27,680 bases of DNA from a virus. Positions 13,123 to 27,680 of this stretch are shown here, piece after piece (position 1 is the stretch's first letter; the number at the start of each line of letters is the position of its first letter). The DNA lies in the IMG/VR virus record IMGVR_UViG_3300042868_001264, positions 1 to 27,680 of that record. One strand, written 5' to 3'. The notes beneath the pieces are model-generated. The model was not told the origin of the DNA. It was given only the letters and a program-made list of their open reading frames with translations, and did no database searches. The translations under genes and the position numbers were made by a program.

Positions 13123-13611
13123 ATGAAATATACTTGGAGACCTGCTACTGGGCATGATGTACCTCACATTGTCAAAATGGCACAAGACCACTTTGAAACT
13201 GAAATAGATACTATCTTTACCCCAGACCCCGTTGCATATAGTCGCAACATTACACTTGCAATAGTCAATCAATTCTATGGTCCTACAACCGAACTAGTAT
13301 CAGTTGCTTCAGACCAAGACAACAATATTGTTGCCTACACTTGGGCCAAGACAGGCGAACGCAGTCCTTGGTCCGATGATGAAATGGTCATTGTTAAAAT
13401 GGCACATCTCTCATTACACTTATCCGCACGAGAACGAGTTGAACTTGTCAAAGACATGTTAGCATTGTGGTCGGCCTTTGCTACTTTGGCGCAGGTCTCA
13501 ATTATCTGTTCTACCACAATGCGTAAAGATCAACAAGCCTTCCTCAAACTACACGAACGAAATGGTTATGACGTTCGTGGTTCCTATGCTTATAAAAAAT
13601 TAAGTGCTTAA
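13123..13611 (+). CDS. GNAT-family acetyltransferase-like protein
   Basis: This is the only convincing plus-strand gene. The 162-residue product opens like a GNAT fold (YTWRPATGHDVPHIVKMAQD, beta strand then helix) and ends like one (FLKLHERNGYDVRGSYAYKK, the strand after the 'neighbour-Gly-Tyr/Phe' turn). The central strand VSVASDQDNNIVAYTWAK also fits. The usual acetyl-CoA loop (Q/R-x2-G-x-G/A) is not clear; ARERVELVKDMLALW takes its place, so catalytic activity is uncertain. An AAGGAA Shine-Dalgarno lies 5 bases before the ATG. It stands alone between divergent terS and the convergent Dps-like gene, like an inserted accessory gene. The substrate is unknown. Confidence 0.65.
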   Translation: MKYTWRPATGHDVPHIVKMAQDHFETEIDTIFTPDPVAYSRNITLAIVNQFYGPTTELVSVASDQDNNIVAYTWAKTGERSPWSDDEMVIVKMAHLSLHLSARERVELVKDMLALWSAFATLAQVSIICSTTMRKDQQAFLKLHERNGYDVRGSYAYKKLSA

Positions 13612-13648: not shown

Positions 13649-13693
13649 AAGACGCAAAATCTGCTGGGTTCTTGATAGCACTTACGGCGTCTT
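13649..13693. other. Nested inverted repeat between convergent genes
   Basis: Perfect seven-base arms AAGACGC (13649-13655) and GCGTCTT (13687-13693) enclose an inner hairpin TGCT/AGCA (13662-13665 and 13677-13680). It lies at the end of the 80-base gap where the plus-strand GNAT gene and the minus-strand Dps-like gene converge, and overlaps the stop codon of the latter. No T-tract follows on either side, so intrinsic termination is doubtful. The rest of the gap (13612-13648) shows nothing else I can name. Confidence 0.4.
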
Positions 13694-14123
13694 AACTTAA
13701 TGTTGCATCTAGCATCCAAATGCTCTTTGCCAAATCTAATATTTGTTCTTGAGCATAGTTTGCTATTTCTTCATGTCCCTCTTTTTCGGCAACAGTCATT
13801 AATCCTTCGTAACTACCTTTCAATAGTTCCAAATCATCTTTGACTCCATGCAAGAAACCGTCTGCATCTTCTTCAAAAATACCAGTACCGATTTCACTTT
13901 GGTTCAATACATCTTGTATTTCGCAAGGCATGTAATCATCAATACTACGCAATAATTCTGCTAGTTTATCAATCTGCTCTTGTCGTCTTTCGTAGATTTT
14001 CTGTAGCAACTTGTGGTCGCTATAGAAGTTTCTACCTAAGATATTTACATGTGCTACATGACTGCGGTAGTACGCAACAAAGTTATTGTTGAATACTTGT
14101 GTTAGTTGTTCTGATGTTTTCAT
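13692..14123 (-). CDS. Dps/ferritin-like protein
   Basis: The 143-residue product is a four-helix ferritin-like protein of the Dps type, which in bacteria form 12-subunit shells that oxidise and store iron and may bind DNA. Aligned by eye with E. coli Dps, the ferroxidase residues His51, His63, Asp78 and Glu82 become His25, His37, Asp52 and Glu56 with identical spacing; the flanking N-x2-G-x-NF pattern is also kept. Asp67 is replaced by Gln41. The C-terminal helix (ILDLAKSIWMLDATL) matches the Dps end. The Lys-rich N-terminal DNA-binding tail is absent (MKTSEQLTQ). Its ATG overlaps the stop of the upstream virion-type gene as ATGA, so it is expressed with late genes. Whether it stores iron, protects DNA or is packaged is unknown. 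Confidence 0.85.
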   Translation of the reverse strand: MKTSEQLTQVFNNNFVAYYRSHVAHVNILGRNFYSDHKLLQKIYERRQEQIDKLAELLRSIDDYMPCEIQDVLNQSEIGTGIFEEDADGFLHGVKDDLELLKGSYEGLMTVAEKEGHEEIANYAQEQILDLAKSIWMLDATLS

Positions 14124-18031: not shown

Positions 18032-18742
18032 TTAAAGTCTTGCGCCAATATTCATGCCAGTTTGTGACTGACCTTGAGTGCCACTAAAGTTAGGATTATA
18101 GCTGCCACTAGGTGTACCAAAGATAACACTAGCATATTGATTATACAATTGTTGTGGTGTCATTGCCGCAGTAATACCTTGACCGGCAGCGCCAATACTT
18201 TGACCTAAGCCACCTTGACCTAAACTAGCTAATGTGCCTGCAGCTTGTGCTCTTTGACCTGCAATTCCTGATTGAATTTGTGCAGCAATCTGTGCTTGTT
18301 GTGCGGCATTAGAACCAGCTAGTTGCTGTCCTGCTAATGCTTGTCTTGCACTTCCTAAGTTACCTGTACCACCGAACTGTGCTTGTTGATTAGCAATGTT
18401 TTGTTGATATTGACTTTGTGCAGGGGCTAATGCTGCTTGAATTTGTGTACGTTCGTAATCAGGATTAAACAAACTTTGTAATCCTGTAACACCACTACGT
18501 AATGCTGACTCACCAGTTTCACCTAATGTTTGACCCGCTTGACTAGCAGTACCAGCTAGATTTTGAGCCGCGTTTGTAACACCACCCAAATTTTGATTGT
18601 ATACATCAGTAGCACCTAGAACAGCATTTTGATATGTGGGAGCAACAGTACCTGTGAAGAACTGAGTCTGTGCAGATATCTGCGCCTTTTGTTCAGGGGT
18701 TAATTCTGGTGTTGTGTATGAACTTGATTTTCCGAAACTCAT
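18032..18742 (-). CDS. Internal virion / DNA-transfer-like protein, 236 residues
   Basis: The product is rich in Ala, Gln and Gly. It begins MSFGKSSSYTTPELTPEQKA and continues with long helical Gln/Ala stretches (ALAPAQSQYQQNIANQQAQF and QALAGQQLAGSNAAQQAQIA). A Gly-rich segment near 170-190 and a short ordered C-terminus (QQLYNQYASVIFGTPSGSYN) follow. This pattern is common in small internal proteins of podoviruses that leave the capsid with the DNA. A TAAGGA ribosome site and an upstream CTAAATAC motif support the start. It lies between the giant modular protein and the 688-residue protein. Confidence 0.7.
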   Translation of the reverse strand: MSFGKSSSYTTPELTPEQKAQISAQTQFFTGTVAPTYQNAVLGATDVYNQNLGGVTNAAQNLAGTASQAGQTLGETGESALRSGVTGLQSLFNPDYERTQIQAALAPAQSQYQQNIANQQAQFGGTGNLGSARQALAGQQLAGSNAAQQAQIAAQIQSGIAGQRAQAAGTLASLGQGGLGQSIGAAGQGITAAMTPQQLYNQYASVIFGTPSGSYNPNFSGTQGQSQTGMNIGARL

Positions 18743-18787: not shown

Positions 18788-21700
18788 TTAACGTGTTGTG
18801 CCATTTGCTTTAGTTAACAGATCCTGATACTGTTGATATGTCATAAAAGGCTGATATGGTACTGTGTTTCTAGGTTGAGTAGTCGGCGCGGCTGGGGCGA
18901 CAGGACTAACCGGAGCATTTGGAACATAATTAGGATCAGTTAATGATCTTGCATATTCTTCGTAACTCAACATAGGCTTATATGGTACTGTACCAACTAG
19001 TTGTGGAACAATAGGTTGAGTATATGGACCAGGCCCACTAAACTGATTGTACGCAGGGTTAACTGGACTTGCAGGTTGCGTAGTAGCTACTGGTTGTGGT
19101 TGTTGACCTTGAGCAAGACCCAATAATTGATCGTAATTCATCATATTTGTAGCAATATTCTGAATACCAAAAGGTTGTGCAGGTGCATCTGGTGCAGTGT
19201 TGTACAACGCAGGATTGAACGAAGGGCCTGGTTGATATGCATGTCTACCCCAATAGTACTTACTTTGTACATTGTTTGTAGTATTGTAGAAATCAGGAAC
19301 ATCAGTTATATAACCTGGATTTAATCCACCTTTAGCTAAAGGCTGAGGTGTAATAGAAGGCAATACTGGTGGTCTAAAGAACGGTGCGCCAGGTGGCTCT
19401 GTTGGAGTGGGAGGAATCGGAATATACGGTGGTATTTCTGGTTCTTCTTCATCTACAGGAGGTTCTTCTACTGGTGGTTCAGTAACAGGAGGTGTGACAA
19501 CTGGTGGAGTTACAACCGGTGGAGTTACTACTGGTGGAGTTACTACTGGTGGAGTTACAACTGGTGGAGTTACAACTGGAGGTGTGACAACTGGTGGAGT
19601 TACTGGTCCGGGCACAACACCAGTTCCAGGTGTTGGTCCTACTACTGTTCCAGTTCCAGGTGTTGTTCCAGTTCCAGGTGTTGGTCCTACTACTGTTCCA
19701 GTTCCAGGTGTTGTTCCAGTTCCAGGTGTTGTTCCAGTTCCGGGTGTTGTTCCAGTACCAGTTCCAGGTGTTAGTGTAGGCGCAGTTGGTCCTACTACTG
19801 TTCCAGTTCCAGGTGTTAGTGTAGGCGCAGTTGGTCCTACTACTGTTCCAGTTCCAGGTGTAACTGTTTCTGTAGGTATTGTACCAGTTCCAGGTGTTAG
19901 TGTAGGCGCAGTTGGGCCTACTACTGTTCCAGTACCAGGTGTTGTTCCAGTTCCAGTTCCAGGTGTAACCGCTGGTACCGTAGGTGTTACTGGTGCAATA
20001 GGTGCTCCACCTGTAGTATCTACTGGAGTTGCAGGTGTTGTTGGTGTAGTTATAGGAGAACCGACGCCTGGAGTACCTGTGTATGTAATATCAGGACCAA
20101 CACGTTCGTAATTACTGTCAACTGGATATTGAACACCATTAATAGTATCCACCATCCAATCTTTTATTACAGGAGGCGTGACTGGTTCTTCTTTTGTCGG
20201 TGAAGTAGTTCCACCTGTAGCACCTGTAGTAGTTCCACCTGTAGCACCTGTAGTAGTTCCACCTGTAGCACCTGTAGTAGTTCCACCTGTAGTAGTTCCA
20301 CCTGTAGCACCTGTAGTAGTTCCACCTGTAGTTCCACCTGGTATAATAGGAGTTACTGGTGGTGTAGTTACAGGTGGTGTAATTACGGGCAATGATAGAT
20401 CAGTTGACTTAGGAGGCGTTGTATCACTAGGTATTATTGGTGTAACCGGAGTTCTACCAGGACCAGCTATTATTGGTGTAGGTATGAATGGTATTACATC
20501 ACTAGGTGCAGCAGGTTGTGTAGGTGTTACTGGCTGTGTAGCTCCTGGTGTAATAGTAACTGTACCAGCATCAGTAGGATTAGTATATGTACCGTCGCCT
20601 GCGCCTGTACCAGGAGTATATGTAACATCTGTAGTTCCAGTACCTGTACCAGTTGTTCCAGTACCTGTACCAGGTGTTGTTCCCGTTCCAATTACTGTGT
20701 CTGGCCCAGTTCCTGTACCAGCGCCAGTGCCAGTGCCGGGTGCTGGACTTGTTCCTTCGCCAGAAACATTCCCTTGTCCAGGGGATACTGCTTCGCCTTC
20801 TGCGCCAAATGTACCATACTTAGTAACATAACTCTTGTTAGGATCAAATGCCGCATTGCTAGGATCGTCCCAGACATTAGCGCCAACGATTCTAGTAGAT
20901 CCGTCTGGCATAGTCCAACGACCATTACCTTGATATGTCAATCCGTTATTGTATGTTGTTCCTGCAGGAATTCTATAACCATATTGATCTGTGTCTAAGC
21001 TTAGATTAGATCCGCCCACTGCTACTCCTGGAGCACTACGATCAGCTTGACCTGTTGCAGGACCTGCAACATCAGTTGGAGCACCAGGCTGTGGCATTTG
21101 ACTTACAACTGTTCCATTACTATCAACAATATTGCCTGTTGTAGTATCTAAATAGTTACCATTACCAACATCAACTAAATTTGGATTTGCAGGTGCTACG
21201 GGCTGAGTAGGAGTGGTTGGAGTCTCTGGTGTTGTAGGCTCAACTGGCTTAACATAATTTACTGCTTGCTGAATAACTTTATTATAAGTTCCATTTGTAA
21301 AACTAGTATTCAACTGTTCGCCTGTCATTCCACCACTTGCTAATGTATTATTGATCTTTGTAAGGTCAATCTTTTTGTCAAGTAAGTATTGTGCAGTACT
21401 TCTGTTTACGCCATTATCTAATAATTGAGCAAACTGATCTGCCTTACCACTGTTAACAATTGTAGGCATGTCATATGAATTTACGCCGGCACTCATTAGT
21501 TTAGAAGCAGTGTCAATTGTTACCTTGCCAGCATTAACATAATTGCTTGCTTGTGCAATTTGGTTTGCGCTTATTCCAGTTGTTAACAAATCATTAATTT
21601 GCGCTTCTGGGAACTGTGTAGTTGCTAAACTAGTTAATGTACTTGCTGGTACGCCTGTGCTTGCAAGTTCAACTAAATCGCTTGCTGAATAACCACTGTT

Positions 21701-24181
21701 AATTAAATTAGTAACATCGTTTGCTGTGTAACCAGCACTGTTTAACACAGCCGCGTCAGTTCCATTTACTAAACCTGTATTTGCTATAGCTTCTGTAGCT
21801 AATACTGCTGCTGACTGAGTAGGTTGTGTAGGTTGTGTAGGCTGAATAGGTTTTGCAGGTACTACAGTAGTTTGAGTTTTGTATGTAGCAGTAGGATCAG
21901 TACTATTGTTAATTGCGTTAATGTCTAGTTTGCCTAAATTCTTGGCGACATTATCTAAACCAACACCATTATATAATGTGTTGATTTTCTCAATAGACAT
22001 TCCAGCGTCAAGTAACTTTTGTACGCTTGCGCCCTGATTCAATACATTTAACTGAGTTCCAGTGACTCCATTATTCAATAATCGTTGTGCTGTTTCTATT
22101 GTAGTTGAGCCAAGACTTACCATTGAACTGGCTTTACCAATATCATTAGCACTTACACCATTTATTAACAAATCGTTAATTGTGGCTTCTGGGAACTTAG
22201 TAGTTGATAGACTAGTTAATGTACTTGATGTAACACCAGTACTTGCTAGTTCAACTAAGTCAGGAGCTGTATAGCCTGCATTGATTAGGTTCTTAACATC
22301 GTTTGCAGTATATCCACTGTCTGCAAGTACAGCCGCATCACTGCCACTTACCAAACCTGTGTTTAATATAGCTTGTTCGCTAGTTACAGGCGTAGGCGCA
22401 ACTGGTTGTGTTGGTTGTGTAGTTGTAGTTGTTGTAGCTAATGAACTGTTTAACCATGTACCATAATTACCGCTAGTAATCTTACTGTTTAGTGTGTTAC
22501 TGTCAAACTTACCACTGTCTAACGCTGTGTTAACTTTAGCAACATCATAACCACTGGACAACAGTTTACTGGCGTTGTCTACTGTTACGCCCTTATTCAA
22601 TAAGTTATTGTATGCATCTGCTGATCCAGCTTTACCTAAGCCTAAGCCATTAATAGTTTGACCAGCGACACCTTTTTGCAATAGACTTGTAGCTGTATCA
22701 ACACTAACACCGTTCTTAATTGCGGTGTTTGCAAGAGAAAGGTCGTTTACAGTTCTGCCACCAGTTAACAAATCATTAATAGTAGCTTCTGGGAACTTAG
22801 TACCAGCTAAGTTTGTTAAGTCAGTAACTTTAACACCAGCACCAACCATATCACTAATGTCTGATCCAGTATAACCTAACTTAGTTAAATCTTGAACTTG
22901 TTGTTGGGTAACGCCTTGTTGTGAAAGTACGTTTGCTTCATCAATTGTAATTGCGCCACTGTTAACTAAGTCTTTGTACGGTATTGCTTTAAAACTAGCT
23001 GTTTGTTCACTATCCATAGCAACACCAAAGTCTCTGTTGATCGTGTCAGCACCAGGCTTATACACAACACCAGTTTTGGTAAAGTTAGTAACTGCTGAAA
23101 CAGTGTCAGCTATTGATGTAGCTGTTCTGCCGGCTGCTGCCGCGTTCGCTACTGTGTTAGCAACAGTACTATCAACGCCACTAGCCAATAAGTTATCTTT
23201 AATTTGCGCGGCAGATAAACCTTGCTGTCTTAATCTTATCGCATCTTCAGCAACAAAGTTTGCGTCTTCAAATCGTTGCATTAATTCTGGGTTGTTGCCC
23301 GCTACAGTAGCCTGTTCTAATGCATTACCATTGTATACACCTGTTGGAGAACCGGCTCCAATGTTTGCTGCCAAAGTACTTGTTTCTGTACCTTTATAAA
23401 CACTAGACGCGGCATAGCTAGCAGTTGAACTATCTACTCCTTGTCCTTGCAATGCAGTAACAATTTGTTGTTGCGACAAGCCATTAGCCTTAAGGTTGGC
23501 AGCTTCGGCTGCTACAACTGTTGCGTCTAACGCACCTTTTTGAGTTATAGTTTTTGATACTTGACCGCTAGCCATCATGTTATTCATTTTAGCATATGCG
23601 TCACGAGCAACGTTGCCTAAGTATGCACTGGCAGCACCTGTCGCCGCAGCCGCCAACATCTCTTTAACTGAGCCGCCGCGCAATGCAGTATAGCCTGCGC
23701 CAAATGCCGCAGATCCAACCATTGTTTGTGTCAATGCACTAGCGCCAGCTGGAGCTAATGCTTTACCAATGATAGGAGTTAAGTATGTGCTTGCTCCTGC
23801 TAATGCGGCGCTTGTCAATACTTGTTTTAAATCTCCGCCACTAGCTAATGTTACGCCCGCACTTAATGCGGCTGCGCCCACAATACTCGCTGTCGCTGCA
23901 CTTGCTCCTAACCATGTTCCAATTGCAGGGATCAATGTAGGAACAAAGATTGCAATTGCTGGAATGATAATGGGTGCAATTGCTTTTACAATCTTTTTAA
24001 AGCCTTTCCATAAGTCGCTAAAGAAGTTACCAAACTCTGGTAAACCAGTGTCTGGGTTGATCGTTCCACTACCGCCACGATCTTTCAGTAGCTGTGCTTC
24101 TTCAGGTGTAATGTGCGCAAGGATTGTGTCATCGCCGCGGCCATGTTGTTGTAATTGTTGTGCCAAAGCTATAACTGACAT
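18788..24181 (-). CDS. Giant modular virion protein, 1797 residues, putative ejection or tail protein
   Basis: The first 50 residues are soluble (MSVIALAQQLQQHGRGDDTI). Residues 53-92 form a basic then hydrophobic segment (FFSDLWKGFKKIVKAIAPII and onward) that could enter membranes, followed by Ala/Gly-rich hydrophobic sequence to about 200. Short helical repeats follow, then three homologous modules of about 200 residues (about 403-580, 609-765 and 803-972). These share an FPEAxINDLL core and repeated 'GV-x-x-x-x-A-x-x-LL' helices, and Gln/Pro/Thr linkers separate them. Residues 1118-1570 are Gly/Thr/Pro repeats including seven VVTPP copies. A 200-residue Pro/Tyr-rich end contains NVQSKYYWGRHAYQPGPSFN. 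The gene lies three bases after its neighbour. Ejection into or across the host envelope is inferred; a fibre-like role for the repeats is possible. Confidence 0.72.
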   Translation of the reverse strand: MSVIALAQQLQQHGRGDDTILAHITPEEAQLLKDRGGSGTINPDTGLPEFGNFFSDLWKGFKKIVKAIAPIIIPAIAIFVPTLIPAIGTWLGASAATASIVGAAALSAGVTLASGGDLKQVLTSAALAGASTYLTPIIGKALAPAGASALTQTMVGSAAFGAGYTALRGGSVKEMLAAAATGAASAYLGNVARDAYAKMNNMMASGQVSKTITQKGALDATVVAAEAANLKANGLSQQQIVTALQGQGVDSSTASYAASSVYKGTETSTLAANIGAGSPTGVYNGNALEQATVAGNNPELMQRFEDANFVAEDAIRLRQQGLSAAQIKDNLLASGVDSTVANTVANAAAAGRTATSIADTVSAVTNFTKTGVVYKPGADTINRDFGVAMDSEQTASFKAIPYKDLVNSGAITIDEANVLSQQGVTQQQVQDLTKLGYTGSDISDMVGAGVKVTDLTNLAGTKFPEATINDLLTGGRTVNDLSLANTAIKNGVSVDTATSLLQKGVAGQTINGLGLGKAGSADAYNNLLNKGVTVDNASKLLSSGYDVAKVNTALDSGKFDSNTLNSKITSGNYGTWLNSSLATTTTTTQPTQPVAPTPVTSEQAILNTGLVSGSDAAVLADSGYTANDVKNLINAGYTAPDLVELASTGVTSSTLTSLSTTKFPEATINDLLINGVSANDIGKASSMVSLGSTTIETAQRLLNNGVTGTQLNVLNQGASVQKLLDAGMSIEKINTLYNGVGLDNVAKNLGKLDINAINNSTDPTATYKTQTTVVPAKPIQPTQPTQPTQSAAVLATEAIANTGLVNGTDAAVLNSAGYTANDVTNLINSGYSASDLVELASTGVPASTLTSLATTQFPEAQINDLLTTGISANQIAQASNYVNAGKVTIDTASKLMSAGVNSYDMPTIVNSGKADQFAQLLDNGVNRSTAQYLLDKKIDLTKINNTLASGGMTGEQLNTSFTNGTYNKVIQQAVNYVKPVEPTTPETPTTPTQPVAPANPNLVDVGNGNYLDTTTGNIVDSNGTVVSQMPQPGAPTDVAGPATGQADRSAPGVAVGGSNLSLDTDQYGYRIPAGTTYNNGLTYQGNGRWTMPDGSTRIVGANVWDDPSNAAFDPNKSYVTKYGTFGAEGEAVSPGQGNVSGEGTSPAPGTGTGAGTGTGPDTVIGTGTTPGTGTGTTGTGTGTTDVTYTPGTGAGDGTYTNPTDAGTVTITPGATQPVTPTQPAAPSDVIPFIPTPIIAGPGRTPVTPIIPSDTTPPKSTDLSLPVITPPVTTPPVTPIIPGGTTGGTTTGATGGTTTGGTTTGATGGTTTGATGGTTTGATGGTTSPTKEEPVTPPVIKDWMVDTINGVQYPVDSNYERVGPDITYTGTPGVGSPITTPTTPATPVDTTGGAPIAPVTPTVPAVTPGTGTGTTPGTGTVVGPTAPTLTPGTGTIPTETVTPGTGTVVGPTAPTLTPGTGTVVGPTAPTLTPGTGTGTTPGTGTTPGTGTTPGTGTVVGPTPGTGTTPGTGTVVGPTPGTGVVPGPVTPPVVTPPVVTPPVVTPPVVTPPVVTPPVVTPPVVTPPVTEPPVEEPPVDEEEPEIPPYIPIPPTPTEPPGAPFFRPPVLPSITPQPLAKGGLNPGYITDVPDFYNTTNNVQSKYYWGRHAYQPGPSFNPALYNTAPDAPAQPFGIQNIATNMMNYDQLLGLAQGQQPQPVATTQPASPVNPAYNQFSGPGPYTQPIVPQLVGTVPYKPMLSYEEYARSLTDPNYVPNAPVSPVAPAAPTTQPRNTVPYQPFMTYQQYQDLLTKANGTTR
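19491..19612. repeat. Tandem 15-base repeat encoding VVTPP
   Basis: About seven to eight copies of a 15-base unit like ACTGGTGGAGTTACA on the plus strand encode VVTPP repeats on the minus strand, near residues 1523-1564 of the giant protein. Units differ mainly at third codon positions, so the peptide is conserved more than the DNA. Confidence 0.9.
19614..19975. repeat. Imperfect repeats encoding PGTG / VVGPT
   Basis: Plus-strand units such as CCAGTTCCAGGTGTT and GGTCCTACTACTGTT recur in mixed order over about 360 bases. On the minus strand they encode TPGTGT, VVGPT and APTLTPGTG blocks of the giant protein. The irregular arrangement suggests slippage or recombination. Confidence 0.88.
20205..20340. 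repeat. Repeats encoding GGTTTGAT
   Basis: A 24-base unit (plus strand CCTGTAGCACCTGTAGTAGT plus TCCA) recurs about five times, with one or two shortened units. It encodes GGTTTGAT-type Gly/Thr repeats around residues 1281-1326 of the giant protein. Confidence 0.85.
21265..22975. repeat. Three homologous ~200-residue modules in the giant gene
   Basis: Core segments at about 22760-22815, 22165-22225 and 21590-21650 share near-identical wording (plus strand CTTCTGGGAA and ACTAGTTAATGTACTTG in copies 2 and 3) and encode FPEATINDLL or FPEAQINDLL. Copies 2 and 3 also share YTANDVxNLIN and DLVELASTGV. They imply duplication within the gene, with copy 1 most diverged. Confidence 0.8.
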
Positions 24182-24183
24182 TC

Positions 24184-24636
24184 TTATAATCCTTCTAGTT
24201 GAGTAGGAGCAACTGGGCCACTGACTTGTTGTGTTGGTTCTGTAGATTCAGTGACTGAACCTTTTGGTAGTATTTCATCCATCTTGTCTGGTAATGTTTC
24301 TGCAACTTTACCAATAACAACCATACTAGCTAACATCTGCACATCAGCTTTTGCTAGTGACTCTCGTGTCTCTAGTTTCTCTTTAACCATAAAGTCAACA
24401 AACTTACTATACTTCTTTTTGTCATTGATTGCAGCTTCTGCCAAGTTACCAATCTTAACAAACATCTTTGGAGGTATGCCAGATTGCTGTATCATTTCAG
24501 TAATTTTTGTTGTTGCCTCGTCTTTAGTTACAGGATTCTGAACCATGTTCTTTTGCTTGTTCATAGCCTGTTTGTTTTGATTTGCATATTGCTTGCCCAA
24601 CGGAGGCATTTTGAAAGTTACTTTATTTTTGCTCAT
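24184..24636 (-). CDS. Small basic helical protein, unknown function
   Basis: The 150-residue product has a basic, Lys/Asn/Gln-rich N-terminus (MSKNKVTFKMPPLGKQYANQ). A helical middle (IPPKMFVKIGNLAEAAINDK and YSKFVDFMVKEKLETRESLA) follows, then a Pro/Thr/Gln tail ending VAPTQLEGL. The helical part, DVQMLASMVVIGKVAETLPD, looks like a compact bundle. No domain is recognised. It lies between a virion protein gene and the giant modular gene with gaps of 2 to 7 bases. No Shine-Dalgarno is seen; TAAATA precedes the ATG by four bases. A chaperone or minor virion role is possible. Confidence 0.72.
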   Translation of the reverse strand: MSKNKVTFKMPPLGKQYANQNKQAMNKQKNMVQNPVTKDEATTKITEMIQQSGIPPKMFVKIGNLAEAAINDKKKYSKFVDFMVKEKLETRESLAKADVQMLASMVVIGKVAETLPDKMDEILPKGSVTESTEPTQQVSGPVAPTQLEGL

Positions 24637-24643
24637 AGTATAT

Positions 24644-25870
24644 TTATTGTTTAATAACTTGTGCTGTAAAGCTACGCAAGCCTAATGTGAACACGCCAGG
24701 AGTAGCATCGCCCGGATATGATTGAGGATCAATACTTAGTATTGTCAATGTTAAATCATTCGCAGGTGTTGCACCGCCTATGTCCGCGCCACTAATCAAT
24801 AATGTATCTCCTACACTATAATCACTACCGCTACTGTTAATAAAGTTTATTGTTGTGTTTGCTTCAGTGTAGGCACCGCTTGGACCTTCTAATAACTGTA
24901 CGTCAATGTCGGCACCACTACCAATGCCCGTTAATGTGGTTGGGATCACATTAAAGTAATCTGTTGTAACTACTTGGGTAGCACTTGTGCCACTGTATGA
25001 GTAATTGTCTGTTTGGCCATATTCTTGTTCTAACAATCCACCTAACAATGGATCAAATGTAGAAAACTCTATATCTAAAATGTACCAATAGAAACCAAAG
25101 CTAGGCTGATCCAATACAGTTGTAAAGATGTATTCATTGTTGCCACTACTACCAGATGTTGATTCACTATAATGCGTAACTTGTTGACTGACTAACGGGT
25201 CAGTATCTAAGTCAAACAAGAATTCGTTGTCGCCAGCTGTAGTTGATGGAAAACCTATATAACGATTTATTTTAACTTTGATATCCCATTCGCTTGCTGT
25301 GGTTAAATCGTATGTAAAGTCTAAGTTTATCTGTGCGGTAATAAACACTTTATCATCAGGTCCATATACCGTTACACGACCATTACAATCTGTTGAGTTG
25401 TCAGTGTTGCTTAAATCTTTTTCAACCGTACCTCCGCTAACGTAAGCTGGCCAGGTTAAATCGCCAAAGCGATACTGAATAACTAAGCCAGTACTACTAA
25501 CTTCTAACACCGATCGGCTATAGTTATCATCAAAAAAGCTTGGTGTTACGCTATCTATAATAACTGAATCACCTTGAGCAAACGGTACTGGAGATTGGGC
25601 TGACGCATATGTAACATCAAGAATAGTACCTGGATTGTTTGGCACTGTTATGTTTGATATTGCTATAGGCGCAACATACAGTGTAGGGGGTGGCGTAGTT
25701 GTAATGGGAACAGTGAATGGCTCTCTAAATGTTCCTGTTAGATACGCTTTGTTAAAGTCACCAAAGCCTTGAAAGTTCTGTCCTAAGCCTGACGGACCCG
25801 ATAGCAAATAGTTGATTGCATCAACAATGCCTTCTTCATCACTGGTTTCTACTGGATACTTTGCTGTCAT
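24644..25870 (-). CDS. Beta-rich virion protein next to nozzle gene
   Basis: The 408-residue product begins MTAKYPVETSDEEGIVDAIN, then LLSGPSGLGQNFQGFGDFNK, a style seen in aquatic phage structural proteins. Residues 70-150 form a beta module that resembles one in the adjacent nozzle-like protein. The rest is acidic, Ser/Thr/Tyr/Asp-rich and beta-like (FITAQINLDFTYDLTTASEW and FGFYWYILDIEFSTFDPLLG). No enzymatic motif is seen. Its ATG overlaps the preceding stop by one base (TAATG). It probably belongs to the tail or its appendages; the exact place cannot be told. Confidence 0.7.
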   Translation of the reverse strand: MTAKYPVETSDEEGIVDAINYLLSGPSGLGQNFQGFGDFNKAYLTGTFREPFTVPITTTPPPTLYVAPIAISNITVPNNPGTILDVTYASAQSPVPFAQGDSVIIDSVTPSFFDDNYSRSVLEVSSTGLVIQYRFGDLTWPAYVSGGTVEKDLSNTDNSTDCNGRVTVYGPDDKVFITAQINLDFTYDLTTASEWDIKVKINRYIGFPSTTAGDNEFLFDLDTDPLVSQQVTHYSESTSGSSGNNEYIFTTVLDQPSFGFYWYILDIEFSTFDPLLGGLLEQEYGQTDNYSYSGTSATQVVTTDYFNVIPTTLTGIGSGADIDVQLLEGPSGAYTEANTTINFINSSGSDYSVGDTLLISGADIGGATPANDLTLTILSIDPQSYPGDATPGVFTLGLRSFTAQVIKQ

Positions 25871-27680
25871 TATCTGTCATCCTCAACTTGTGTTATTTGC
25901 CAAGTCGTTGCACTGCACATCCAAACACTGTTGTTGCTAGTGTTGCTCAACTCCAAAGTGTTTACCCTAAATGCATTCTGATTAATCTGTGCCCAGGGAT
26001 TGGCGCCGGCTGCCCCATCAGCATCTACTGGAATTGTTACAGGAGTTACTACCGTGGGCGCACTTCCTACTGAGTTAGCACCCTCAATTGTAACTGTGAT
26101 GTTACCTTTGTTCGTACTTGTAGCAGGATCTATTGGGCGTTCGTCATCACTAGTAAAAGGCTCTGCACCGAGGTTAACTACTTCAGGTAATATTCTGTGC
26201 ACCATAAGTTTACCACTGTAGTCTTTGAGCAACTTGATGTTGTCTCTACGGAATACGCTTGCTATGGGTGTGTCATTGATAAAGCTAAAGCCTTGATCTT
26301 TCATTACTAGGCTAGATTCTGCTACGCCACGAGCATAGACCACTGTGCGTGATCCATCGTTTGTAATCCAATCGGGATCATCATATGTCCAGATAGGGCT
26401 TTCGCAACTAAATGTAGCATCACTAATATCTCTTGGGCTGTTCCAGCAATCAATGTCGTAACGATAACTTATCATTTTGTTTGGTACGCCGTCTGTTGCG
26501 TCAAGGTCTGGATAATATATCTCAACCTGACTACGCTGTGTATTAGTTTCCATAAACACACGGTCGTAGTACTGAGGATCTAAGTTATCATAGAACCAAT
26601 TCTTTACACGCTGATTGCCTAGGCCTTTAAAGTCTTGCCCATCAAAGACCCATATGTCTCTAGCGTCAACACCATATACTAATTTGTCAGTGTTAGCCCA
26701 ACAGTTGCTTGACAATAAGCCGCGACCCTGGTTGAACTGACGCACGCCTAAGATTGGCGCACTTGTTGTACTGTAGTTGATAGGACTGAACACAACAGTG
26801 TCCCAATAACTACATAAGAAGAACTGACCATTACAAGGAAACGCATCTAATGCAGGGCCGCGCAATGGTACTTCAAGCTGGTTAGCTACGTTTGTTACTG
26901 TAGGTGTCCATGTTGTTGGGGCATCGTTTAAGCCAAAGCTTTGACTCCATTGTACAGTAACAGGATATATCTCTGTTGTTGTGTCAATGTTTGTTGCGGT
27001 AAGATTGCCCGCAACCAAAATGCTACCAACGTTGGGGGTATTGTACATACGCATAAACTTAGCAAACACACCGCTCCAGTTAGGATTGTAGTTCCAAGTG
27101 TAAAGAGGGGCTATGTCGCCAGATACAAATGGCTGAACAATATCACAAGCAATCTCTACTGTTGTGTCTGTGCTTGCTATTACAGTGTATGTACCATCAT
27201 AGTATCGTGGGTTAACGTCTTGTAATAGTATTTTACTGCTTGTGCCAAACGGTATGTTAGGACTGTCAGGGTTATCAAACGTTATTACACGATTAAGAGG
27301 GTTGGTTGCAACTGTGATGCTTAGTATCTCTAATGGGCTTATGTTGCTGTACGATACCATAATAGCGCCAGCAACATCAGGCCAGAAGAACGGAGGATTT
27401 TGTTCATCGTTTAAGAACAATACATTACCGTTCCAAGCCTCTGTAATGTTAGTTGCTTGATTGTAACCTTCGCTGTCAAAATTGCTATCATTGGGAGTAA
27501 TGTCGTCCCATACTTGCGTACTAGGATTATATGCTAATATTTGTCCAGGATACGTAACTGGGTCAACTGAATCTGCTTGTGTTGCCACAACAAACCAAAA
27601 GTAGCCATCGTTGCGAAAGCCTCCAGTAATGAATGTGGGTGCGCCACTGCCATTGGGCAATGCATCAAGAATTTCTTGAT
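25870..27680 (-). CDS. Nozzle / tail-stabilisation-like protein, N-terminus cut by window edge
   Basis: The frame is open through base 27680 (upstream codons read QEILDALPNGSG), so the start is outside the window and at least 602 residues are visible. A TTG at 27660 could be mistaken for the start. Repeated aromatic beta segments occur (GYFWFVVATQ, then TWNYNPNWSGVFAKFMRMYN and WDTVVFSPINY). The segment YGVDARDIWVFDGQDFKGLG, then QRVKNWFYDNLDPQYYDRVF and SQVEIYYPDLDATDGVPN, resembles the beta-propeller proteins of short tails (T7 gp12 nozzle, P22 gp10 stabilisation type). Residues about 112-186, counted from the TTG, carry the beta module shared with the downstream protein. It should form the tail tip around the DNA channel. 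Confidence 0.7.
   Translation of the reverse strand, partial: QEILDALPNGSGAPTFITGGFRNDGYFWFVVATQADSVDPVTYPGQILAYNPSTQVWDDITPNDSNFDSEGYNQATNITEAWNGNVLFLNDEQNPPFFWPDVAGAIMVSYSNISPLEILSITVATNPLNRVITFDNPDSPNIPFGTSSKILLQDVNPRYYDGTYTVIASTDTTVEIACDIVQPFVSGDIAPLYTWNYNPNWSGVFAKFMRMYNTPNVGSILVAGNLTATNIDTTTEIYPVTVQWSQSFGLNDAPTTWTPTVTNVANQLEVPLRGPALDAFPCNGQFFLCSYWDTVVFSPINYSTTSAPILGVRQFNQGRGLLSSNCWANTDKLVYGVDARDIWVFDGQDFKGLGNQRVKNWFYDNLDPQYYDRVFMETNTQRSQVEIYYPDLDATDGVPNKMISYRYDIDCWNSPRDISDATFSCESPIWTYDDPDWITNDGSRTVVYARGVAESSLVMKDQGFSFINDTPIASVFRRDNIKLLKDYSGKLMVHRILPEVVNLGAEPFTSDDERPIDPATSTNKGNITVTIEGANSVGSAPTVVTPVTIPVDADGAAGANPWAQINQNAFRVNTLELSNTSNNSVWMCSATTWQITQVEDDR

Follow-up and report, generated by a model that had tools for sequence, protein, structure and literature searches.

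It is an open question how short-tailed phages, whose tails are much shorter than the envelope they face, make a channel across it. Ejection proteins are hard to recognise, owing to their fast divergence. The locus described here raises the question of whether a very long protein encoded next to tail genes is one of them. It lies in a 27,680-nucleotide stretch of viral DNA, called the window below (positions 1 to 27,680 of IMG/VR record IMGVR_UViG_3300042868_001264).

The gene and its surroundings

The target gene (18788..24181, minus strand) starts with ATG and encodes 1797 amino acids. The ATG lies 2 nt past the stop of an upstream 150-aa gene and has an AGAAGGA-type ribosome site in front of it. 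Open reading frames on the plus strand within the gene were rejected as mirror artefacts of its repeats. The window is, to judge by its gene content, a fragment of an SU10-like short-tailed phage genome, since its genes include those for a portal (PF23899, 1.8e-44) and a major capsid protein (PF17236, 1.4e-34), both of SU10 type, together with a terminase gene and one for a nozzle/stabilisation-type protein (phrog_3287, 6e-25). In the order of transcription, the nozzle gene (602 aa up to the window edge) is followed by genes of 408, 150, 1797 (the target), 236, 688, 611 and 143 aa. The terminase, portal and capsid genes lie further along, after the 143-aa gene. The genes closest to the target are:

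25870..27678, minus strand: nozzle/stabilisation-type tail protein, cut by the window edge; the phrog_3287 match, with similarity to kuravirus tail proteins
24644..25870, minus strand: 408-aa gene in the tail-tip/needle position, placed by synteny only
24184..24636, minus strand: 150-aa helical gene, homologous to a domain fused before the head motif elsewhere
18032..18742, minus strand: 236-aa gene of a constant family of about 240 aa
15955..18021, minus strand: 688-aa gene, with positional counterparts in SLT, internal virion and released-protein families

In short-tailed phages the ejection genes form a small mosaic cluster, in which one member is small (~200 aa) and best conserved and another carries a movable peptidoglycan hydrolase (PMC8954989). 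Both types have plausible counterparts here. A gene of about 240 aa comes next after the target-type gene in 55 of 57 testable full-length members of the target's family (described below); its products average 247 residues, and across 26 sampled sequences the mean column identity is 67%. Its length, its conservation and its position would suit the role of the small ejection protein, a fit by analogy with homology not proven. Among 42 positional counterparts of the 688-aa gene (a set that includes the window's own), an SLT transglycosylase domain is present in 12; the family "internal virion protein with endolysin domain" is matched by 6 and "released from the phage upon host infection" by 5. 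The 688-type gene would likewise fit, by analogy, the ejection protein with the movable hydrolase. Because the target sits ahead of two genes that fit ejection roles, it can be read as an additional, tether-type component of the same set.

Homology of the 240-aa protein to the kuravirus gp21/gp22-type proteins, UFV-P2 gp61, Venkman gp46 and the DSL-LC04 ejection protein was considered and rejected: the central pattern looks similar, but hhalign comparisons were not significant. Neither phrog_4287 nor phrog_2534 had a match within the window itself.

Several other features of the region were recorded. The 143-aa gene (13692-14123, minus strand) encodes a ferritin-like/Dps-type protein (PF00210, 2.5e-13; phrog_3636, 6.6e-26), and a gene of about this size is found at the equivalent place in many relatives, downstream of the ejection cluster. 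A lone plus-strand ORF of 162 aa (13123-13611) lies inside the otherwise minus-strand gene block; it appears acetyltransferase-like by eye and matched none of the PHROGs. In relatives, the position immediately upstream of the target gene is taken by exchangeable accessory genes (L053:13394-14413, L043:13278-14300, L049:8000-8629, L032:12699-13163). These include a 2OG-Fe(II) oxygenase with DUF6817, a phosphoribosyltransferase and a GNAT acetyltransferase (for L043 by sequence likeness).

Parts of the 1797-residue chain

The original prediction, made from the window alone, described a single chain with a hydrophobic basic segment at residues 53-92, Ala/Gly-rich hydrophobic sequence, three duplicated modules, about 450 residues of low-complexity Pro/Thr/Gly repeats and a separate Pro/Tyr-rich C-terminus. 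Each of these parts was recovered, and the same parts occur in the same order in an independent contig (see below). All parts are encoded on the minus strand:

24026..24181, minus strand: head motif, residues 1-52, GRGDDTILAHITPEEA...GGSGTINPDTGLPEF (positions invariant in five phages)
23906..24025, minus strand: amphipathic basic helix leading into a hydrophobic stretch, residues 53-92 (from hydropathy, helical moment and model)
23567..23905, minus strand: Ala/Gly-rich hydrophobic helices, residues 93-205, with a GG(D/S)(L/V)K(Q/E)(V/M)L..AA repeat present twice
22997..23566, minus strand: pair of small helical repeats, about residues 206-395 (from the model)
22427..22996, minus strand: module 1, about residues 396-585, a predicted solenoid of 13-residue single-helix repeats
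21842..22387, minus strand: module 2, about residues 599-780
21227..21796, minus strand: module 3, about residues 796-985
19331..20791, minus strand: Thr/Pro/Gly low-complexity linker of tandem repeats, residues 1131-1617 (487 aa)
19133..19330, minus strand: conserved C-terminal core of the LNPG...YYWG...TPWG type, residues 1618-1683 (from the profile)
18791..19132, minus strand: Pro/Tyr/Gln-rich tail, residues 1684-1797, shared with L030 among the members seen

A membrane-seeking element is predicted at residues 53-205. The 18-residue helical moment reaches 0.71 at residue 51, and the Kyte-Doolittle 19-mer hydropathy peaks at 2.23 at residue 69 (whole-protein shuffles average 1.77). This peak is unexceptional alone and gains its meaning from the fact that the amphipathic-hydrophobic helices are kept in close relatives. 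Structure prediction for residues 1-130 was of low confidence. Further along the chain the AlphaFold2 model (residues 1-620, 17 sequences) has a pLDDT of about 85-95 over much of residues 206-366 and most of module 1.

The three modules, delimited for comparison at about residues 399-593, 599-778 and 795-994, share 37%, 37% and 45% pairwise identity over 150-166 aligned residues, and their profile found copies in eight other non-redundant proteins, far beyond chance. Module 1 was modelled as a regular solenoid with helices of about 9 residues at a 13-residue spacing. Independently of the model, the autocorrelation of Gly and aliphatic residues shows a 13-residue lag for modules 1 and 3 that exceeds every one of 500 shuffles; the signal in module 2 is weaker. 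A fold search of the head/module model in the PDB gave no significant match. The best structural neighbours of module 1 in VIA-align were TALE-type DNA-binding solenoids, with Z up to 7.7, which is below the informative range for repeat proteins, and an rmsd of 4.3 over 114 residues. TALE/BurrH solenoids resemble module 1 in being superhelices of short helices, but they have two helices per ~34 residues where module 1 has one per 13, and there is no sequence match.

These neighbours bring up an internal virion protein which is not ejected and organises the portal or the packaged DNA, its solenoids contacting DNA or the portal hub. The gene neighbourhood is also compatible with such a protein. 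The TALE-type similarity that would support it is of the uninformative kind just described, however, the modules are net acidic (-2 to -6), and most family members lack them. This explanation is judged improbable.

Thr, Pro and Gly make up 66% of the linker. Its DNA consists of perfect or near-perfect tandem repeats (for example a 24-bp unit at 100%), and it appears to have expanded recently, since some repeat copies are 100% identical. The core which follows the linker, with the pattern LNPGxI....FY.TT...QS.YYWG..P.Q.GPTF....YN...APxTPWG, spans ~65 residues and is the best-conserved part of the whole family. In the window it scores E 3.8e-29 with a profile that includes the window's own sequence. 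Its model has a pLDDT of about 80 and is devoid of regular secondary structure. Searches of the C-terminus against phage records gave no match; nor did the PDB when its sequences were searched with alignments of the 240-aa protein, the head/module region and the C-terminus. No confirmed match to the core was obtained in one-per-species bacterial genomes, and no host is therefore proposed.

A mosaic family defined by its C-terminal core

A direct search of viral contigs with the whole protein returned zero relatives, because most of the chain is private to the target. Relatives were therefore gathered first through the neighbouring nozzle gene (57 contigs), in which the target slot was found at the equivalent place, and then through the C-terminal core. 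The core profile identified a protein ending in the core at 31 of the first-gathered loci, many of the others being cut before it, and a second scan with the core gave 67 loci. In total the family comprises 79 distinct members, 59 full-length and 20 partial. Full-length members measure between 175 and 1797 aa (median 658), and the part ahead of the core takes up 71 to 1632 residues. The shortest is that of L022 and the longest that of the window.

Between residues about 1000 and 1600, BLAST matches of the target to other members vanish. The middles of the members consist of Ala/Gln coils, collagen-like GAS/GAT repeats, or Asn-rich, Pro-Val-Thr, Thr-Glu and Gly-Asp repeats. Sequence comparison indicates that heads, modules and linkers are freely exchanged among members. 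Among the 59 full-length proteins, the head motif is present in 25 and a strongly hydrophobic stretch before the core in 40; 10 have both and 4 have neither. Many motif-bearing members have just Gly/Asp repeats. The membrane-active head of the original prediction thus stands as a predicted property of the target, while in the family it is not fixed.

The window architecture is not unique. In L010, a 1452-aa protein of independent metagenomic origin, head, modules, repeat and core follow one another as in the target, and L068, L076 and L135 show this architecture again with other linkers. The uncharacterised 1447-aa protein A0A6J5P4C2 of an uncultured Caudovirales phage probably has it too. Shorter than the target and known here through matches to two predicted models, it matches the head/module region (E 4.7e-20, 45% identity) and its C-terminal core is 46% identical to the target's. 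These sequences bear on whether the chain is an assembly artefact joining separate genes. Perfect tandem repeats, as in the linker, can cause mis-joins, and one relative (L008, below) is perhaps such a case. The independent contigs with the target's architecture, together with a database protein that matches both of its ends, exclude such an error for the target, and the chance of it is judged negligible. The outcome for the false fusion envisaged in the original prediction is mixed: the parts do occur in other combinations elsewhere, but the fusion itself is real.

A long reach, implied by the original prediction, is not supported as a general requirement: the L022 protein is only 175 aa long, and in L063 (MW202484) there is no such gene, just a 100-aa Gln/Pro/Gly-rich ORF in its place. 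The function is hence replaceable or optional in at least that phage. The statement that no described family has this order holds for the exact order only, for the head is a very common module and the chain is one of 59 full-length mosaic members. In the open-licence literature, no paper with the motif letters was found, none combining ejection protein, disorder and podovirus, and none describing the family hallmark, the tenfold length range or the recurrent head motif. The family was thus not found described, but its kind (mosaic, fast-evolving ejection-cluster proteins) is already known.

Two members have unusual insertions or extensions. In L038:8131-11253, residues about 659-773 resemble a Hint/intein-like domain (PF07591, 3.1e-5, just under the curated cut-off) located within the Pro-rich linker, possibly a self-splicing insert in a virion-cluster protein. 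In L008:7778-11519, the target-slot protein continues through GAT/GAS repeats into a tail-fibre tip (phrog_8763, 3.8e-11), and fibre-type genes come next in place of the 240-aa gene. This may be a natural recombination via the repeats or a chimeric contig mis-joined at them.

The target itself had no meaningful match in PHROGs or Pfam, tape-measure and fibre families included. A fibre-like role has to be weighed nevertheless. In this scenario the protein is a whisker or fibre on the outside of the tail or neck, with the core docking on the nozzle while the repeat shaft and the variable N-terminal half point outward and adapt to the host. The gene adjoins tail genes, and several members have collagen-like GAS/GAT and Pro-rich shafts; L061 matches tail-fibre PHROGs over its repeats, Pfam Collagen matches 1 of 45 members, and L008 runs on into a fibre tip. 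However, the fibre matches fall on low-complexity repeats, and L008, which lacks the 240-aa gene, may be chimeric. Hydrophobic, Gly-zipper-like heads would be unexpected on an exposed fibre, and fibres usually conserve the other terminus, not the C-terminal one conserved here. Elsewhere, moreover, head motif and 150-aa domain are tied to ejection-type proteins. An external appendage is judged unlikely, though it is the main rival of the reading favoured below.

The head motif and the proposed role in DNA ejection

Residues 1-52 of the target form a sharp motif, GRGDDTILAHITPEEAQLLKDRGGSGTINPDTGLPEF, the general form of which is DTxLAHITPEEA...GGSGTINPxTGLPEF. At least 542 motif-related stretches were detected in viral contigs, and by this comparison the target head appears to be borrowed from a widespread phage head module. 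The motif is found in three protein settings. The first comprises proteins of about 330-420 aa that join it to a different domain. For example, gp46 of the cultured phage Venkman starts with the motif and its fused domain matches the "DNA ejection protein" family phrog_4287 (5.7e-11). In the second (620-1114 aa, for example DSL-LC04), a domain of ~130 aa precedes the motif and an amphipathic-hydrophobic stretch follows it; the gene after the DSL-LC04 motif protein matches phrog_4287. The third setting is the LNPG-core family. Two bridging proteins, L124 and L131, contain the fused 130-type domain, the motif and the LNPG core in one chain.

The domain fused in front of the motif in L124, L131 and DSL-LC04 is related to the separate 150-aa protein of the window (hhalign probability 92%, hmmsearch E 3.1e-7, with a fused-domain profile of 37 sequences that were not de-duplicated). 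In DSL-LC04, Venkman, ctz7E20 and ctah5458 the N-terminal ~50 residues of the head-motif proteins are 57-74% identical to the target's, and their genes are likewise located between those for tail proteins and large downstream proteins. Unlike the target, these four proteins lack the LNPG core and the modules, and the DSL-LC04 protein differs further in the fused 150-type domain and in a C-terminus unlike the target's.

The DSL-LC04 protein bears the annotation "tail tape measure", and tape-measure PHROGs are matched by its C-terminal segment, so that the shared head could mark the target as the tape-measure protein of a long tail. The target lacks that segment and any tape-measure match, though, and the window has an SU10-type portal and capsid and a nozzle. 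No tail-tube gene was matched among the 20 proteins scanned in the window, itself a fragment, and relatives with the same tail genes vary tenfold in length. A tape-measure role is considered very improbable.

In L167:4976-7056 and L210:5938-8871 two consecutive genes each open with the DTxLAHITPEEA...NPxTGLPEF motif, which suggests a shared signal and not the fold of one protein. Head-motif proteins can also end in DSIPAMLSDGEFVFTAKAV (L003:13500-13818, L145, L146 and others), a segment also present in tape-measure proteins from several PHROGs. Similar to the head motif (DT.LAHITPEEA), it may represent the same signal.

On balance, the target probably belongs, as a tether-type component, to the DNA-ejection proteins of an SU10-like short-tailed phage. 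The gene itself, its position, the family with its mosaicism and the head and C-terminal homologies are observed; virion location, ejection, partner and membrane insertion we infer from gene order, conservation and predicted features. Anchoring would fall to the C-terminal core, an irregular peptide rich in aromatic residues, which probably takes up its fold against an invariant component of the virion; the ~240-aa product encoded next door or the tail channel is the likeliest candidate. At the other end, the head with its motif, amphipathic helix and Ala/Gly helices would be the active part, working with the separate 150-aa protein, leaving the virion through the tail and inserting into the host envelope. 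Head and anchor would be joined by the solenoids and the Thr/Pro/Gly repeat, as low-complexity chain and short helices could pass a narrow channel unfolded and then span distance.

The gene lies in a late cluster with ejection-type genes, following the nozzle and tip-position genes and preceding the 240-aa gene and a gene with SLT-bearing, internal-virion-type and released-type counterparts. Its head motif also opens Venkman gp46 and the DSL-LC04 protein, with their links to phrog_4287, and in other phages head and 150-aa protein are a single protein. The conserved ends, the exchangeable middle and the helices kept in close relatives agree with this role. Other observations point against it. 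Matches to phrog_4287 are sparse, Venkman's being the only one among 34 short-type motif proteins, with 3 of 18 in the genes next to the second type. Homology of the 240-aa protein to known ejection proteins is not proven, 19 of 59 full-length members lack the strongly hydrophobic stretch, L063 lacks the gene, and the collagen-like middles of some relatives are commoner in fibres. The ejected tether of the original prediction is accordingly retained as the best reading of a chain with head, flexible middle and C-terminus in an ejection-like cluster, but is not confirmed as stated.

Known ejection systems offer a partial parallel. In SU10, gp20-24 are encoded after the nozzle (gp17) and the needle (gp18), and they exit the particle with the DNA (PMC9509320). 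Like the target, the genes for gp20-24 of this Kuravirus come after nozzle and needle genes and beside a transglycosylase-bearing protein, and the portal and capsid genes of the two phages are of the same type. Unlike the target, gp20-24 have no LNPG core; no sequence similarity was found, and the target's location in the virion is a presumed one. The ejection proteins of T7 (gp14/gp15/gp16) and P22 (gp7/gp20/gp16) are also encoded by clustered, fast-evolving, mosaic late genes, with membrane-seeking members and, as in the target cluster, a movable peptidoglycan hydrolase (PMC8954989). They have no detectable homology to the target and lack long Thr/Pro/Gly repeats. Compared with these sets, the target would be one component more, encoded next to a neighbour of gp14 size (240 aa).

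A broader picture can be offered tentatively, with more doubt than confidence. Many SU10-like phages may carry an extra ejection tether, its core fixed to the ejection complex and its exchangeable heads thrown into the host envelope on linkers of almost nothing to ~1500 residues. The DTxLAHITPEEA...GGSGTINPxTGLPEF motif would then be a general loading or ejection signal of unrelated ejection proteins.

The 65-residue C-terminal core and the neighbouring 240-aa gene form a hallmark that tags a family with a tenfold length range at one locus, and this range offers a ready-made series in which to ask whether reach is set by linker length. The head motif starts several otherwise unrelated proteins of the neighbourhood, sometimes two neighbouring genes. 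As a candidate signal for ejection or virion loading it can be tested, and it would aid the annotation of many dark phage genes.
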